Positions 1-7,132 of a DNA stretch of 64,000 bases are shown piece after piece. The position numbers were made by a program, and so were the translations under genes. Where the stretch lies: the NCBI GenBank assembly GCA_025353105.1, contig JANXRG010000072.1:1-64000 (forward strand), given 5' to 3'. Under the pieces are notes generated by a model that saw only the letters and a list, made by a program, of their open reading frames with translations, had not been told where the DNA came from and ran no database searches. The stretch is from Verrucomicrobiota bacterium (GTDB lineage Bacteria; Verrucomicrobiota; Verrucomicrobiia; Chthoniobacterales; SZAS-18). Within the stretch, counting starts at the first letter, position 1. Each line of letters opens with the position of its first letter.

Positions 1-179
1 AAGTGTCCCATTTTTGGGGTCAGGTCACCCACGCAATAGCGACAGGAGCGAGAGCGATAACGGCAAAGGCAAAAACGAACCAGGGATCGATCCAGACACG
101 AAAGCGGCGATCCGGTGGATAGTGGATAGCGCGATGGACTTTGTCGAATGTCTGCATGCAGAATCGGTTCCAGTGTGAA

Positions 180-827
180 TCAGATTGCTTTGTTTGGTCG
201 TGGTCCCGAGCGTTTGGCCGACGGCTTCTTTGGATTACTCCGTGAGATCTCCGGATACGTGATTGTGGTGCCGCAGACTTTCGCAAAGGGCGTCAGAGTG
301 TGAACCTGGCGGCGAATTGGGCTCATGATGTCCTCGGCGCGGATTCCCCGAATCAGCAAGGCATCGGCGATGAGCGAGCGATGGCAGCGCCAAGGCACCG
401 CTTCGGCGCACATCAATACGATTCGCTCTTGCTTCGACATCAGGATCAATTCGTCGAGGCCCTGCTCAAATTCCGGTGTTTGCATGTAATCCGCATAACC
501 CCGAAAGGAAGCATTGCGCCAGCCCATGTTGACCGAATCGTGCCGAGCATGACGCAGCCCGCCCAGGCCCGGCAGGTGAACGTATCGCAATCCTGCCTTC
601 TTTAACGGTCGAGGCAAAGAAGCCTTGTTGAACTGCGGATTATGCCGGGAACGCGGCACCGTGCGCACATCCACTATGCAAGTTGGCCCATGTCTCTGAA
701 GCAGGCGGATGAATTCATCGAGCGTGCGCGTGGAATGGCCAATCGTCATTACCAACGGTAAAGGTTCTTTCTTTGCCGTGTTTTTTTCCACACCATCGAT
801 CGCTTTTTTATTTCTCAGCGCGCTCAT
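180..827 (-). CDS. DUF488 family protein
   Basis: 215-residue protein of the DUF488 family. Seen: an N-terminal segment with TIGHSTRTLDEFI, then DVRTVPRSRHNPQFN, a central GLRYVHLPGLGG, and a C-terminal ERIVLMCAEAVPWRCHRS block whose cysteines and WRCHRS are the family hallmark. The biochemical function of DUF488 is not established. The tail is basic and serine/proline rich, probably disordered. It overlaps the next upstream gene on the same strand by four bases (ATGA type), so the two are probably translated together. It lies in an accessory strip of decayed genes downstream of tRNA-Phe, but its own reading frame looks intact. Confidence 0.85.
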   Translation of the reverse strand: MSALRNKKAIDGVEKNTAKKEPLPLVMTIGHSTRTLDEFIRLLQRHGPTCIVDVRTVPRSRHNPQFNKASLPRPLKKAGLRYVHLPGLGGLRHARHDSVNMGWRNASFRGYADYMQTPEFEQGLDELILMSKQERIVLMCAEAVPWRCHRSLIADALLIRGIRAEDIMSPIRRQVHTLTPFAKVCGTTITYPEISRSNPKKPSAKRSGPRPNKAI

Positions 828-1045
828 GGTTTGCTTTTGAGTTTCTTGAGCGCCGATCCCTTGTGCATGGCCAGATGGTCCGTCGTGTCACTTTGGATCA
901 AATACTGCGGCTCCTCCTTCGAGGCGCGGACCGTATAGCCCTTGAATCTGATGGCCGAGGTGATCCTTTTCTTGATCGTTCCCCGAACGTGGCCGGCTTC
1001 CGAGTTCCACCCCACATGATCTCCAACCTTAAAGTCCTTCTTCAT
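824..1045 (-). CDS. Small Tudor-like protein (DUF2945/HVA1 family)
   Basis: 73-residue basic protein. The opening KVGDHVGWNSEAGHVRGTIKK matches the short 'hypervirulence-associated Tudor domain' family (DUF2945), which is an SH3/Tudor-like barrel found next to DUF488 genes in many bacteria. Almost the whole protein is the single domain, with a lysine-rich C-terminus. It is the first gene of a two-gene unit with the DUF488 protein (four-base overlap). Function unknown; binding of a modified protein or nucleic acid would be a guess from the fold. Confidence 0.8.
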   Translation of the reverse strand: MKKDFKVGDHVGWNSEAGHVRGTIKKRITSAIRFKGYTVRASKEEPQYLIQSDTTDHLAMHKGSALKKLKSKP

Positions 1046-1189
1046 CGGTATGATCTCCCTACGATTGCTTTATGGTTTCAGGTTCAGGAGCGAATCATTG
1101 TGAGAAACATCTTGAATCGCTTCAGCGCCTTGAGGACGGGCGGCTGCTGCGCGGGCAGTAGAATCATCTCGCCTGCGCGGGAGCCAGAT

Positions 1190-1330
1190 TCGTGATGGCT
1201 GGGCATCGAGGACTTTTCCAAACTTGTCAAAAGCGAACCATTGCAGGGACAATCCCAGGTTTCTTCCGAATGGTTCCAGGTTAAAATGCCTCCCAAATGG
1301 GGCCAAAGCGCTGAACATTCGTGCAACACT
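1190..1330 (-). pseudogene. Decayed Rieske iron-sulfur domain fragment
   Basis: On the minus strand one frame reads SALWPHLGGILTWN, then EETWDCPCNGS (down to about 1234). The next frame continues as FDKFGKVLDAQP (about 1231-1195). Together this is the Rieske pattern C-x-H-L-G-G ... TWDCPCHGSRF-DKFGKVL. The first ligand cysteine is now Trp, the second-motif histidine is now Asn, and a one-base deletion just after NGS shifts the frame. Two of four cluster ligands are gone, so the product could not hold a 2Fe-2S cluster. In FAD oxidoreductases of this type the Rieske domain is C-terminal; I do not see the rest of the gene. Confidence 0.7.
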
Positions 1331-1411
1331 CCGGCCGCATCGCAATAAACCGAGAAGCGTTCGATCCAAGGATAAGGACGCCATTCAATTCAAAGATCCA
1401 GATCAACCCCT

Positions 1412-1621
1412 CTACGCCTGCGGAATCGACCTCCCATCCACATCTTTGAACCGCGTGATCGGAGAACATGCCATAGACGACGTCGTTAACTTCTTTGCCA
1501 ATTCCTTGTCGTAGGCGGGTTGGTCAAGTCGTAGCAGCGCTTCGTCGTCCAGCCACAGTTTCACCTTCTTGCGCACTTCGAGATTCTTACAGATTCTGGG
1601 TAACAGAGCGTCGAATAGCAA
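1412..1621 (-). CDS. Short unrecognised reading frame, possibly a gene remnant
   Basis: 69 codons. The predicted protein has a plausible charged composition (RKKVKLWLDDEALLRLDQPA and ELAKKLTTSSMA) but no family I recognise. It lies between the Rieske remnant and the integrase stump in a strip full of broken genes, so it may itself be a fragment. Support is composition and strand only. Confidence 0.2.
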   Translation of the reverse strand: MLFDALLPRICKNLEVRKKVKLWLDDEALLRLDQPAYDKELAKKLTTSSMACSPITRFKDVDGRSIPQA

Positions 1622-1652
1622 TTATGAATCCGTTTCGGCTTGGCTAAACGTG

Positions 1653-1880
1653 TCAGCCTTCCGACCGAGCAGCGTTTTCGGCCTGCGAGCCTACTACGTC
1701 GAATTCCACTTCACCGCTGTCCGAAAGTCTGACCGGCGAGCTTCGCCGATAAATTTCCACCGGAATCGCCCCGTCCGACGAAACAAAAAAGTGTCCCTTC
1801 TCAATTACCTGCTCCCCCTCCTCAATCTCCTGCGTCTCCCCGCCGTGCAAGCCTCCGACGAGTTTGGTTTTTTCTTTCAT
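1653..1880 (-). CDS. Hypothetical 75-residue acidic protein
   Basis: Starts at an ATG preceded by GAGGA and follows the integrase stump on the same strand. The protein is acidic (GGETQEIEEGEQVIEKGHFF, then EIYRRSSPVRLSDSGEVEFDVV). The sequence looks protein-like rather than antisense, but I recognise no domain. It may be a small accessory gene of the decayed integrated element next to tRNA-Phe. Confidence 0.3.
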   Translation of the reverse strand: MKEKTKLVGGLHGGETQEIEEGEQVIEKGHFFVSSDGAIPVEIYRRSSPVRLSDSGEVEFDVVGSQAENAARSEG

Positions 1881-1936
1881 TCCTCGAGCATCCGTCCGAT
1901 TTTTCGAACTGCAAACTGAAAGCGATGTGGCTCGGC

Positions 1937-2122
1937 CTACGGGGCGATTTGCCACCACTTCTCGGCGACGCTCGGTCTGACCGCCTGATGATAGTGGCGA
2001 AAAATCATCTGAGCCGAGTTTCCAGCCTCCAGCGCGACCTTCGCGGCATCCTGAACGGCCGCGAGCCGAGAGCTGCAGAACGAATGCCGAAGCAGTTTGA
2101 CTCCCGTAAAGCCGATGCGAGT
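1937..2122 (-). pseudogene. C-terminal stump of a tyrosine recombinase (integrase)
   Basis: The minus strand encodes LLRHSFCSSRLAAVQDAAKV, then ALEAGNSAQMIFRHYHQAV and a TAG at 1937-1939. This is the end of a phage-type integrase catalytic domain: the LRHSF motif carries the catalytic Arg, and the FRHY motif carries the nucleophilic Tyr. The frame is closed upstream by a TGA at 2123-2125, about 10 codons before LRHSF, so the rest of the catalytic domain and the N-terminus are gone or frameshifted. The stump ends about 290 bases from tRNA-Phe, a usual integration target, so it marks an old insertion. Confidence 0.8.
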
Positions 2123-2227
2123 TCAATGCGCGAAACTTGGAAACCGAGATATTTTGTTCCCCTAACAGTCTTTGGAGTCACCGCTGTCCCAAGCAATTTG
2201 GTGCAGTTATGGTGCAGTTACTCTGAC

Positions 2228-2300
<73 letters not shown>

Positions 2301-2364
2301 TTCGCCGAAAGCGGACGGGAAGGATGCCGCGCGCGATCACCTTTGCAAGGGAAATTGCGGAAGT

Positions 2365-2399
2365 GCGAATGGCGAACGGCGAATGCCGAATGGCGACAA
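2365..2399. repeat. Degenerate heptanucleotide tandem repeat (GCGAATG type)
   Basis: Five consecutive 7-base units: GCGAATG, GCGAACG, GCGAATG, CCGAATG, GCGACAA. It lies in the short gap between tRNA-Phe and the recF stop codon. One of seven such heptad arrays in the window, each with a different unit. Confidence 0.8.
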
Positions 2400-2437
2400 T
2401 CGAGCCAGCCAGCGCGCGGCCCAGGCGTCGATATTCA

Positions 2438-3499
2438 CTAGGCCCGCACCACGCCGGCCTCGATGCTCCAGATGGCACCCGGAGTCGAGTCGTCGAGCCA
2501 GGACAGACTCGTAGCGGTGACAAATTTTTGCGCGCCGGGCGGCAACGCGCGCACCAGGGCGTTGCGCCGCGGGAGGTCCAGCTCGCCGAAGATGTCGTCG
2601 ATCAACAAAATCGGCGGCCGAGACATCGCCGCAGCGATCAGCTCGCCCTGCGCCAGCCGCAACGCCAGGACGATGGTGCGTTGCTGGCCCTCGGATCCGA
2701 ACTCCGATGCGGATCGATTGTCCAACCGGATGCGCAGTTCGTCTCGATGCGGCCCCACCACGGTCTGACCCAGCCGGGCCTCGTGTTCGGCGCTGTCCAT
2801 CAGCGCCGACAGCAAGTCGTCGCCGCCGCTCGGCACGTATTCGAGCCCCAGCCGCTCGCCCCCCTCGCCCGCCGGAAGCCGGATCGCGACGTGAGCCGAC
2901 AACGCGCGCGGCGCGAGTTCCCGCACGAGGTTTGCGCGCAGCAACTGCAACAAGGCGCCGGATTCAAGGAACGGGGCGTCCCACGCGGCCAGTTCGCGGC
3001 GCGGCATCGGCGTCATTTTCAGCAGGCGGTTGCGCGAGCGCAGCGCGCGCTCGTACGCACGAAGATGCTTGCGATAGAGCGGCTCTATTTGCGCGCCGAG
3101 AAAATCCAGGAAACGCCGCCGGCCCTCCCCCGGCCCGGTGACGATTTCCAAATCGGTGTTGCCGAACCACACGACACCCGACACCGCCAGATAATCCCCG
3201 GACGAGGGCTGCGGCGTTTCGTTTAACGAGATTGTCCGACCATCCGCCCCGTGCTTGAGATCCAACTGCACGTCGCGACAAAGGCCGCGCAGCGAAAAGG
3301 CCGGTTGCTCGTGGCGCGTCAGCGGCGCGAGGGTCAAGGCTCGCGGCGAAGTCAGCCGCAGCAGGACGCAGATGGCCTCGAGCAGCGAGGTCTTGCCCTG
3401 GGCATTGTCGCCGACGATGAAATTGAATCCGGGCCCCGGTTCAAACGCGAGCGATTCGAAGCAACGAAAGTCGCGCGCCTTGAGCTGACGGAGCGCCAT
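2438..3499 (-). CDS. recF: DNA replication/repair protein RecF
   Basis: 353-residue SMC-like ATPase that loads RecA at gapped DNA with RecO and RecR. Seen: the N-terminal LKARDFRCFESL start typical of RecF, Walker A in VGDNAQGKTSLLEAI (about residues 29-43), the central FLDFLGAQIEPLY and VVGPHRDEL, the ABC-type signature GSEGQQRT, and Walker B ILLIDDIFGELD. The ATG at 3499 was chosen because the conserved N-terminus begins there; the frame stays open further upstream but that sequence is unlike RecF. It is preceded on the same strand by a small lipoprotein gene and is not next to dnaA/dnaN here. Confidence 0.93.
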   Translation of the reverse strand: MALRQLKARDFRCFESLAFEPGPGFNFIVGDNAQGKTSLLEAICVLLRLTSPRALTLAPLTRHEQPAFSLRGLCRDVQLDLKHGADGRTISLNETPQPSSGDYLAVSGVVWFGNTDLEIVTGPGEGRRRFLDFLGAQIEPLYRKHLRAYERALRSRNRLLKMTPMPRRELAAWDAPFLESGALLQLLRANLVRELAPRALSAHVAIRLPAGEGGERLGLEYVPSGGDDLLSALMDSAEHEARLGQTVVGPHRDELRIRLDNRSASEFGSEGQQRTIVLALRLAQGELIAAAMSRPPILLIDDIFGELDLPRRNALVRALPPGAQKFVTATSLSWLDDSTPGAIWSIEAGVVRA

Positions 3500-3518
3500 G
3501 GAGGGTCCGCCGGCTTCC

Positions 3519-3761
3519 TTACTTTCCGTCGGGCACCAGCTTTTGCGGAGTGGCCGCTGGTTCCGCCTGCTTGTCAGCGTGTTCCGCGTCCTTCTTTTCC
3601 TCGTGCTTCGCGTGCTGGGCCTGGAAGGCATTCGTCTTCTCCATCTGCTCGAGGTAGAACATTTTGGCCGTGTCGCCCGGCATCCGGTTGCAGGCGGGCG
3701 ACGTGAGCAGCACGGCCGCGAGAATGGTGACGAGAGCGAGAGAGCAAATCAGACGTTTCAT
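3519..3761 (-). CDS. Small lipoprotein
   Basis: 80 residues starting MKRLICSLALVTILAAV, a typical signal peptide ending in a lipobox-like LTSPAC; the cysteine would be lipidated after signal peptidase II cleavage. The mature part is short, very hydrophilic and rich in Lys, Glu, His and Ala (QHAKHEEKKDAEHADKQAEP), probably disordered or helical. The ATG at 3761 was preferred because it puts the signal peptide at the very N-terminus. It lies 19 bases upstream of recF on the same strand. Function unknown. Confidence 0.75.
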   Translation of the reverse strand: MKRLICSLALVTILAAVLLTSPACNRMPGDTAKMFYLEQMEKTNAFQAQHAKHEEKKDAEHADKQAEPAATPQKLVPDGK

Positions 3762-3811
3762 GGCAGGGAAAGGCGTGAGCGGTATGAAAGCCGGGATGAG
3801 AGAGAAAGACA

Positions 3812-3838
3812 ATTGAAGATTTCAGATTTCAGATTTGC
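3812..3838. repeat. Heptanucleotide tandem repeat (ATTTCAG type)
   Basis: Units ATTGAAG, ATTTCAG, ATTTCAG, ATTTGCT in direct succession, upstream of the small lipoprotein gene. AT-rich, unlike the surrounding GC-rich genes. Confidence 0.75.
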
Positions 3839-3914
3839 TCTTTGAGGGCGGAGAACTGTTTGAAGAGCTGTCTCGCGCCGCTCGGCTCAGATTTTTTCAG
3901 TGGTTCGGTCCGAG

Positions 3915-3942
3915 CCAATAACCAGTAACCAATAACCATTAA
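3915..3942. repeat. Heptanucleotide tandem repeat (CCAATAA type)
   Basis: Four units: CCAATAA, CCAGTAA, CCAATAA, CCATTAA. The last unit supplies the queD stop codon (TTA at 3939-3941 on the plus strand), so the array begins exactly where coding ends. Confidence 0.8.
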
Positions 3943-4310
3943 CTCTTCTTCCCTCCCCTATACGCACATCTCGCCTTCGGCGTCTCGTGGATGACGATTT
4001 CGGCGAGGCCGGGGAGCTGGGATGACAGCTTTGCCCAGAACCAATTGGCCATGAGTTCAATCGTGGGATTCTCCAAGCCGGGAATGTCGTTGAGGTAGGC
4101 GTGATCGAGTTGATCGACCAGCGGACGCATCGCAGCGCTGATCTTCGCATGGTCGTAGACCCAGCCGGTCTGTGGGTCGATCTCGCCCTCGACGGTAATC
4201 TCCACCTTGAAACTGTGTCCGTGCATCTTCGCGCACTTGTGACCGGCCGGCGCGTTGGGCAGCGTCTGGGCCGATTCGAAACGGAAGTCCTTGGTGAGAC
4301 GGAAGCTCAT
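3939..4310 (-). CDS. queD: 6-carboxy-5,6,7,8-tetrahydropterin synthase QueD
   Basis: 123-residue QueD of the 6-pyruvoyl-tetrahydropterin synthase family. It converts 7,8-dihydroneopterin triphosphate to 6-carboxytetrahydropterin, the second step of queuosine/7-deazaguanine synthesis. Seen: HKCAKMHGHSF with the catalytic Cys and two zinc-binding His, LDHAYLND, and PTIELMANWFW with the conserved Glu. Its partner queE lies about 100 bases upstream on the same strand, acting on the product. AT-rich heptad repeats lie on both sides of the gene. Length is normal for the family. Confidence 0.93.
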   Translation of the reverse strand: MSFRLTKDFRFESAQTLPNAPAGHKCAKMHGHSFKVEITVEGEIDPQTGWVYDHAKISAAMRPLVDQLDHAYLNDIPGLENPTIELMANWFWAKLSSQLPGLAEIVIHETPKARCAYRGGKKS

Positions 4311-4337
4311 TTCAGATTTAAGATTTTAGATTTGTGA
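4310..4337. repeat. Heptanucleotide tandem repeat (TTTCAGA type)
   Basis: Units TTTCAGA, TTTAAGA, TTTTAGA, TTTGTGA directly abut the queD start codon (CAT at 4308-4310). The array therefore lies in the queD leader, where it could affect translation. Confidence 0.75.
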
Positions 4338-4373
4338 ACGGCAACGCCGCAAGCGCACACAGCATGTCTCTTC

Positions 4374-5113: not shown

Positions 5114-5252
5114 GAACCGGGCAATAACCGGCGGAATGGCGCCAATTGCAACGGGCGGGAGCGAGGGCGGAGGCGGCCCGTCGGAGAATTGGCGATTTTA
5201 TCCTAAGAAGTGAGCGCCGAATCCGTCATTATGAAGGGAGAGGTCTCCGCGC

Positions 5253-5816
5253 ATGACCGACCCCGCCACCGAATCACCCGCCAACCTGATTTCCGTGCCG
5301 CGCTGGGGCACGGACCATAACAACTGGCTTCGCGGCATCGTCGGCCGATACGAGCAGCCCCTCCTCACCTTTGCCGCGCGCATCCTCGGCGACCCCGAGC
5401 TGGCGCGTGATGTGGTGCAGGACACGTTCATTCGACTCGGGCAATCGGGGCCATGGCAATTTGCGAGCGGCGACCCAGCCAAATGGCTCTTCAAGGTCTG
5501 CCGCAACCGCGCGATCGACGTCTGCCGGCGCATGAAGCGGCTGACGTTCATCGACAGCAACGCGCTCGCGACGCACGCGAGCGAGGAGGCGTCGCCCGCG
5601 GATGTGCTCGCCTCGCGCGACGACCACGGCGCGCTCTTACGCCTCGTCGCGAGATTGCCGGCGCGGCAGCAGGAGGTCATCCAGCTCCGGTTTCAAAACG
5701 ATCTCAGCTACCGGGAAATCGCGGACATCACGGGCCTGACCGAAACAAACGTCGGCTTCCTCCTGCACACCGCACTCAAGTCATTGCGCGAACACCGGGC
5801 CGAACTTCACCGCTGA
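5253..5816 (+). CDS. ECF-family RNA polymerase sigma factor
   Basis: 187 residues with sigma region 2 (about 30-95: LLTFAARILGDPELARDVVQDTFIRL) and region 4 (about 125-180: LPARQQEVIQLRFQNDLSYR, then IADITGLTETNVGFLLHTAL helix-turn-helix). No region 3, as expected for ECF. It ends 20 bases before a membrane protein with an anti-sigma-like N-terminus, which is almost certainly its regulator. Divergent from queE. The inducing signal cannot be read from the sequence. Confidence 0.9.
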   Translation: MTDPATESPANLISVPRWGTDHNNWLRGIVGRYEQPLLTFAARILGDPELARDVVQDTFIRLGQSGPWQFASGDPAKWLFKVCRNRAIDVCRRMKRLTFIDSNALATHASEEASPADVLASRDDHGALLRLVARLPARQQEVIQLRFQNDLSYREIADITGLTETNVGFLLHTALKSLREHRAELHR

Positions 5817-5836
5817 GAAATTTCCCTTCCGACTCT

Positions 5837-7132
5837 ATGAATGCCCAATTTGACGATCCAAAACTAACCGCCTACGCGCTGGGCGAATCCCTCCCGGACG
5901 AGGAGCGCCAGGCGGTGGAGCGCCTTCTCGCGGAATCGCCGGAAGCCTGTGCCATGGTGGACGAAATGCGTGCCCTACGAGCCGGGTTGCGGGCCGAATA
6001 CGACGCGCAGCGGACGAACACCCCGAGTCGCGAGTTGGCAAATATTATCGAACTCAGCGAGGCGCGCCGGGAGACGCCCATGGCGCGATCGACAACTCAT
6101 CTGCCGCGCGTCGCGGCGCTGGTCGTAGCGAGTTTGGCGATTGCGTCGATCGCCTGGTTCACGATTCGTCCCGGAGAACGCGATCGAATCGTCACGGCGA
6201 AATCGAAGGCTTCCGCACCGGGGGCATCCGGTGAGACCGACCCCAACGCGTACCTCGAGATGGAAATGGAAGGCCCCGCGGGGTCGGCGGCCGCGCCCAG
6301 GGACAACCCAAGCTACGAAACTGTCCGCCGGTCACTCCGCGCCAACCAGCTCCCGCCGAAGGATGCGGTGCGAATCGAGGAGATGGTGAATCATTTTTCG
6401 TATCGCTACGCCGCATCGACGGCGAATGCGGGGGACCCGTTCGCGGTGCATCTGGAAGTCGCAAGCGCACCGTGGAAATCGGCCCACCGTCTGGTGCGCA
6501 TCGGCGTGAAAGGCCGTGAAGTCACCCCCGGGCAGCGACCGACCGGGACCGTCGCCACGACAGCCAAAGACGTGAACCTCGAAGTCGAATTCAATCCTGC
6601 GCGCGTCGCGGCGTACCGTCTCATCGGTTACGAAAACCAGCCGTCGAAGAAAGAGAATTCCGCTTTTGACCGGATCGACGTCGGTGAAATCGACGCCGGG
6701 CGCACCGTGACCGCGCTCTACGAAATCGTTCCGGCCGGACGGTCGGTCCCGCCCGCCGGATTCGTGGACGCATTGCCATACCAGACCCCGGCGCCGACGA
6801 GTGGCGCCGCCGCGAGCGCGGAAATGCTGACCGTGAAAATGCGCTACAAGTTGCCCGGGGGCAACATCAGCGAGTTGGTGGACTTCCCGCTCGTTGACGA
6901 CGGCCGGCCATTTGAAGCGGCGACCGCCGATTTCAAGTTTGTCTCGGCGGTGGCGGGATTCGCGATGCTGCTGCGCGATTCGCCAGAGCGCGGCGACGCG
7001 ACGCCGGACTCGATCGCGAAGTGGGCCGACGCCGGGCTCAGCGACGACACGGCCGGACATCGCGCCGAGTTCATCGAATTGGTGCGCAAGGCAGAATCAC
7101 TCCTCGCCATCGGCCGGCCGGGACCGTCGTAG
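5837..7132 (+). CDS. YfbK-like membrane protein lacking its VWA domain, putative anti-sigma factor
   Basis: 431 residues. Residues 1-60 (DDPKLTAYALGESLPDEERQ) resemble anti-sigma N-termini of this phylum but lack a zinc-finger HxxxCxxC. One membrane helix follows at about 91-110. Residues 158-227 (SYETVRRSLRANQLPPKDAV ... HRLVRIGVKG) match the N-terminal domain of YfbK-type VWA proteins (vWF_N, PF12450). Residues 243-431 (AKDVNLEVEFNPARVAAYRL, IGYEN ... ALYEIVPAG) match its C-terminal DUF3520. In YfbK a VWA domain of about 170-180 residues with a DxSxS metal site lies between these; here they are joined by about 15 residues. The frame is intact, so this is a clean domain loss. The likely job is to hold the upstream sigma factor at the membrane (inferred). 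Confidence 0.8.
   Translation: MNAQFDDPKLTAYALGESLPDEERQAVERLLAESPEACAMVDEMRALRAGLRAEYDAQRTNTPSRELANIIELSEARRETPMARSTTHLPRVAALVVASLAIASIAWFTIRPGERDRIVTAKSKASAPGASGETDPNAYLEMEMEGPAGSAAAPRDNPSYETVRRSLRANQLPPKDAVRIEEMVNHFSYRYAASTANAGDPFAVHLEVASAPWKSAHRLVRIGVKGREVTPGQRPTGTVATTAKDVNLEVEFNPARVAAYRLIGYENQPSKKENSAFDRIDVGEIDAGRTVTALYEIVPAGRSVPPAGFVDALPYQTPAPTSGAAASAEMLTVKMRYKLPGGNISELVDFPLVDDGRPFEAATADFKFVSAVAGFAMLLRDSPERGDATPDSIAKWADAGLSDDTAGHRAEFIELVRKAESLLAIGRPGPS

Follow-up and report, generated by a model that had tools for sequence, protein, structure and literature searches.

In-frame absence of the VWA domain from a YfbK-type putative anti-sigma factor of Verrucomicrobiota

In the stretch of Verrucomicrobiota DNA analysed here (the window, 64,000 nucleotides) the gene for a stress-type ECF sigma factor is followed by the gene for a 431 amino acid membrane protein of the YfbK type, in which the two flanking domains vWF_N and YfbK_C are present and the VWA domain between them is missing. 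We consider it likely that the two genes constitute an autoregulated pair of ECF sigma factor and membrane anti-sigma factor, from whose sensor the VWA domain was cut in frame, the host module being kept. The same excision appears to have been made several times independently in related bacteria. The features of the locus are given below.

5203-5230, + strand: promoter-like dyad CTAAGAA-N14-CGTCATT (5202-5230 as CCTAAGAA-N14-CGTCATT), upstream of the sigma factor gene
5253-5816, + strand: ECF sigma factor gene, 187 amino acids (Pfam and NCBIfam sigma70-ECF matches)
5837-7132, + strand: VWA-less, YfbK-type, anti-sigma-like membrane protein, 431 amino acids (translation, Pfam, AlphaFold mean pLDDT 80.9)
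5837-6070, + strand: anti-sigma-like head, residues 1-78 (helices 8-14, 21-33, 35-61 and 64-78)
6107-6160, + strand: predicted membrane helix, residues 91-108 (a hydrophobic stretch, helical in the model)
6281-6499, + strand: vWF_N (PF12450; Pfam vWF_A/PF12450), residues 149-221 (E 2.8e-21, profile positions 24-94)
6500-6547, + strand: putative VWA excision junction, residues 222-237, inside KGRE-VTPGQRPTGTVATT-AKDV (KGRE to AKDV spacing)
6548-7102, + strand: YfbK_C (PF12034), residues 238-422, remaining part of the beta-sandwich and C-terminal helices (E 1.7e-53; modelled strands and helices)

The sigma factor gene and its upstream motif

The 187 amino acid protein belongs to the ECF class by its size and by carrying only Sigma70 regions 2 (PF04542, Sigma70_r2, E 2.8e-11) and 4 (PF08281, Sigma70_r4_2, E 2.2e-14), both over the Pfam cut-off. 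It is 54% identical to an ECF sigma factor of the same family which adjoins an intact YfbK gene. The gene for the 431 amino acid protein lies on the same strand directly downstream, its ATG 20 bases past the sigma factor stop codon as the earlier note had it, and this pairing is kept in most relatives. A PADLOC search for a tie to phage defence gave no match. Distant from the pair, at 2228-2300 on the minus strand, Rfam places a tRNA gene.

The promoter-like motif ends 22 bases ahead of the sigma factor ATG. Across Verrucomicrobiota the pattern [TC]AAGAA-N14-16-CGT[TCA] is conserved upstream of this clade of ECF genes and, to our knowledge, does not correspond to any motif of the described ECF groups. 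Of the clade's 78 upstream regions, 28 contain its strict form (TAAGA-N14-16-CGT[TC]), against a random expectation of 0.19 on average and 2 at most (200 random resamplings), and the motif is common to the VWA-bearing, the VWA-less and the head-only members. The window site is the sole match to TAAGAA-N13-15-CGTC in the 64 kb. We infer that the TAAGAA-N14-CGTC site is the sigma factor's own promoter, and the shared motif could serve as a reporter for the pathway. A wider regulon was considered and rejected: genome-wide the motif has six matches as compared to fourteen for the reversed pattern, with the N14 spacing only at the window site, and for this reason no regulon is claimed.

The VWA-less protein and its VWA-bearing relatives

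Both flanking domains of the 431 amino acid protein score far over the Pfam cut-off of 25 bits (75.7 bits for PF12450 and 182 bits for PF12034), with a gap of just 16 residues between them. The earlier note had described vWF_N, at residues 158-227, as running almost directly into DUF3520 from about residue 243, with the whole VWA domain gone and the frame intact, and had proposed a Pfam search as a check. The Pfam limits (149-221 and 238-422) are close to these; no VWA model was matched between the two domains, and the gene is open throughout from 5837 to 7132. Profiles built from intact relatives detected no VWA domain in any reading frame of the window between 3801 and 9000 which, together with the Pfam result, rules out a VWA concealed in another frame or elsewhere in the gene. 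The spacing from KGRE to AKDV is 14 residues in the window protein and 191 in the intact relatives L012, L090 and L127, so that the junction is too short to conceal a VWA, which takes about 175 residues. A second YfbK gene working in trans could also be ruled out, since PF12450 is matched just once in the whole genome (as is PF12034).

The N-terminal head is modelled as four helices, with a pLDDT of about 95 for residues 11-50. The NCBIfam antisigma model (NF052375) matches the protein at E 1.4e-7, which is under its cut-off, and zf-HC2 is matched weakly by eight of fifteen heads of the family. A profile of the heads of fifteen relatives, compared to the PDB, retrieved one significant chain, 3hug_B (E 0.0014), labelled in the PDB table only as a "probable conserved membrane protein"; we take 3hug to be the RslA-SigL complex and its chain B to be the anti-sigma factor RslA. 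The zinc-binding HxxxCxxC motif, which marks the ZAS subtype only, was present in none of 71 heads. By these sequence matches, which for single heads are weak, the head is likely to act as an anti-sigma domain. The anti-sigma-like head and the membrane helix of the earlier note are thus both upheld, the latter by the hydrophobic stretch at residues 91-108, modelled as a helix.

The same note took head and helix to have been gained in this protein, and here the relatives tell otherwise. In a genome of the same family (G001) the ECF gene is followed by the gene for a protein of 891 amino acids (the likely ATG taken as its first residue), in which the DPKLTAYALGEL head recurs and the vWF_N-VWA-YfbK_C series is full. 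VWA-bearing YfbK proteins behind ECF genes carry the same DPxLTAYALGEL head, within the family (L012) as well as across the whole phylum. Head and helix are therefore ancestral. An ECF gene lies directly upstream in nearly all of about forty intact loci surveyed across Verrucomicrobiota, and an alignment of 35 intact ectodomains shows no variation at the MIDAS residues D112, S114, S116, T180 and D210. Operons that combine ECF sigma factor, head, membrane helix and vWF_N-VWA-YfbK_C are common across Verrucomicrobiota; judged from the sequences compared, the head and the pairing with an ECF sigma factor are old and the loss of the VWA is derived.

Sequence searches with the window protein gave no meaningful match to a solved structure. 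In its AlphaFold model the strands are at 202-211, 214-226, 241-252, 257-263, 290-299, 329-338 and 345-353, followed by three C-terminal helices. In the model of the intact L012 ectodomain (pLDDT 87.5) two strands (70-79 and 82-94) precede the VWA domain (about 105-283) and five strands (286-297, 302-308, 335-344, 391-400 and 407-416) and then helices follow it. The strand order agrees between the two models, the comparison being one of strand order and not of superposed coordinates. The VWA domain is thus predicted to be inserted at a single loop into one host domain made up of vWF_N and YfbK_C. These flanks, treated in the earlier note as two separate domains, are modelled as one discontinuous beta-sandwich that ends in a helical tail, and removal of the VWA would accordingly leave a whole domain. 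Foldseek gave ArnB (8s05) as the best match for both models, with E 1.8e-16 and TM 0.40-0.49 for the intact relative (8s05_B) and a weak match for the window model (E 1.4e-3, query TM 0.21).

Recurrence of VWA loss

The earlier note, which knew of no description of the arrangement, had proposed a search for homologs with the same gap next to sigma factors. VWA-less relatives were found in several families, and the arrangement is not a single oddity, since it recurs in several lineages. They include G006, of the same genus as the window and with its head cut by the contig end, L070-L073 in family f10, L007-L010 in Akkermansiaceae-type genomes, and the more diverged L068, L069 and L074-L084 in families f8 and f11. 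In L073 (G334, 2-4364) the two forms stand in tandem, an ECF gene with a VWA-bearing copy being directly followed by an ECF gene with a VWA-less copy.

On the ECF tree the VWA trait takes six changes, of which at least five are forced by well-supported branches, and the window's ECF falls together with VWA-bearing members from its family and from f2, a family of the same order (96/99). With the ECF tree as a proxy for the history of the operon and with groups picked by trait, the AU test rejected a single clade of the five close VWA-less members (p 3.7e-58), the window together with L071 (p 2e-6) and the four VWA-less members of f10 as a clade (p 4e-4).

The junctions differ as well. From KGRE to AKDV there are 14 residues in both the window and L070, with unlike sequences, 8 in L071, 24 in L072 and about 6 in L073. 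A clean removal is seen in L071, which compared to L127 of the same genus misses 183 codons in frame, with about 78% DNA identity on either side; from GLKGRE to TLVTIAKDV it has 3 residues and L127 has 186.

Proposed mechanism, alternatives and known systems

In the proposed mechanism the head (residues 1-78) would hold the sigma factor in the cytoplasm, and the single helix is predicted to span the inner membrane. The outside part would be the host module known from YfbK, Sec23/24- and ArnB-like and composed of a beta-sandwich and a helical tail. One loop of this module bears, in most relatives, a VWA domain whose MIDAS is complete; in the window protein that domain has putatively been excised in frame. 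A signal from outside, probably a protein contact, would be read by the sandwich and helical module and would loosen or destroy the grip of the anti-sigma factor, by proteolysis or conformational change, and the freed sigma factor would start transcription of its own operon at the TAAGAA-N14-CGTC site. A wider reading, to which we give an even chance, treats the VWA of a phylum-wide class of ECF anti-sigma sensors as a removable insert of the YfbK/Sec23-24-type host domain, repeatedly and cleanly excised from sensors which still work via the sandwich and helical tail.

The main rival to a working sensor, which we regard as unlikely, is decay: after loss of the VWA the ectodomain would be under relaxed constraint and the tethered head would sense little. 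The ectodomains of the window protein, L072 and L073 sit on long branches, a possible sign of such relaxation. The D-V-D core of the FSIDVDT stretch preceding vWF_N is kept in 54 of 56 VWA-bearing and in only one of 16 VWA-less rows (L070), as counted from printed alignment rows with L081 and L082 unalignable at that stretch; either this stretch contacts the VWA or the region was relaxed after VWA loss. The same-genus G005 moreover has an ECF gene and a head with no recognisable YfbK part. As a further decayed copy G005 was rejected, the ectodomain comparison being insignificant (E 0.27); its whole-protein comparison is significant (E 2.3e-7), a match which probably arises through the head. 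Against decay stand the intact frame of the gene, the high confidence with which most strands of sandwich and tail are modelled, the many residues invariant across six VWA-less ectodomains, and the Akkermansiaceae version kept in four genomes.

Somewhat less probable again is that only one or two losses occurred and that the VWA-less ectodomain then spread by gene exchange, in which case some of the losses counted on the ECF tree would be transfers of the partner gene instead. The minimum forced by the ectodomain tree is just two changes, and the window lies there close to family f10 and not in its own. This tree is poorly resolved, too poorly for counting losses by itself, and a placing of the window in its own family and order was not rejected (p 0.25); on it, too, L071 is a well-supported sister of the VWA-bearing L127, and the differing junctions speak against exchange as well. 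An assembly or sequencing artefact dropping about 530 bases would be conceivable in a draft genome of 121 contigs, and we hold it to be highly improbable: the junction is in frame, the VWA-associated stretch before vWF_N is altered as well, and the same architecture is found in a same-genus genome and in several other families, and also in the single-contig genomes G094 and G128.

Among known systems, the window protein shares with the YfbK family (e.g. YfbK of E. coli) both flanking Pfam domains over the curated cut-offs, and is distinguished from it by the missing VWA, the anti-sigma-like head, the membrane helix and the ECF partner. To pairs of ECF sigma factor and single-pass membrane anti-sigma factor of the RslA-SigL and RskA-SigK type it is linked by the adjacent ECF gene, the modelled helical head with its possible likeness to RslA, the one predicted membrane helix and an outside domain; in distinction to these, its head has no zinc ligands and its outside part is the YfbK host module. 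YfbK proteins are widespread and, as far as we know, have no established function. ArnB is a beta-sandwich split by a VWA, with a helical domain, and has been likened to Sec23/24; E. coli YfbK has been named as its predicted structural relative, and ArnA, the partner of ArnB, makes contact with both its sandwich and its C-terminal domain (PMC12852372). By analogy, these contacts suggest that the VWA-less module could still receive a signal. The intact form is predicted to share with the ArnB and Sec23-Sec24 core fold (8s05) the VWA-split sandwich followed by a helical bundle, but the window protein lacks the VWA, is membrane-bound, lies beside a sigma factor and matches 8s05 weakly, as given above.

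In the literature searched there was no paper that deals with DUF3520 or connects YfbK to ECF sigma factors, and no report of the YfbK host module as the outside part of an anti-sigma factor. That probable anti-sigma factors across Verrucomicrobiota have YfbK as their outside part gives it a testable role in ECF control. That the VWA has been naturally removed again and again suggests that the host sandwich, and not the VWA, is the indispensable part, and the recurrent removal allows the same sensor to be compared with and without its metal-dependent adhesion site. Should the removable-insert reading be true, such natural pairs would reveal the contribution of the MIDAS to sigma factor control.

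Some further observations concern the surroundings of this family. Seven loci of the same ECF clade (L088, L089, L092, L098, L102, L104 and L105) have the same head and no recognisable YfbK part; L088 is of the window's own genus and the tail of L089 is trypsin/HtrA-like by eye. Among the plasmid records no VWA-less case was present in the matches listed, the best of which are VWA-bearing YfbK proteins that match in two pieces. Weaker PF12450 matches occur in open frames of about 900-1500 amino acids in many Verrucomicrobiota, possibly a separate subfamily. In L009 and L010 the pair of ECF and VWA-less genes lies behind genes which by eye encode a Rex-like repressor and a Gfo/Idh-type oxidoreductase.
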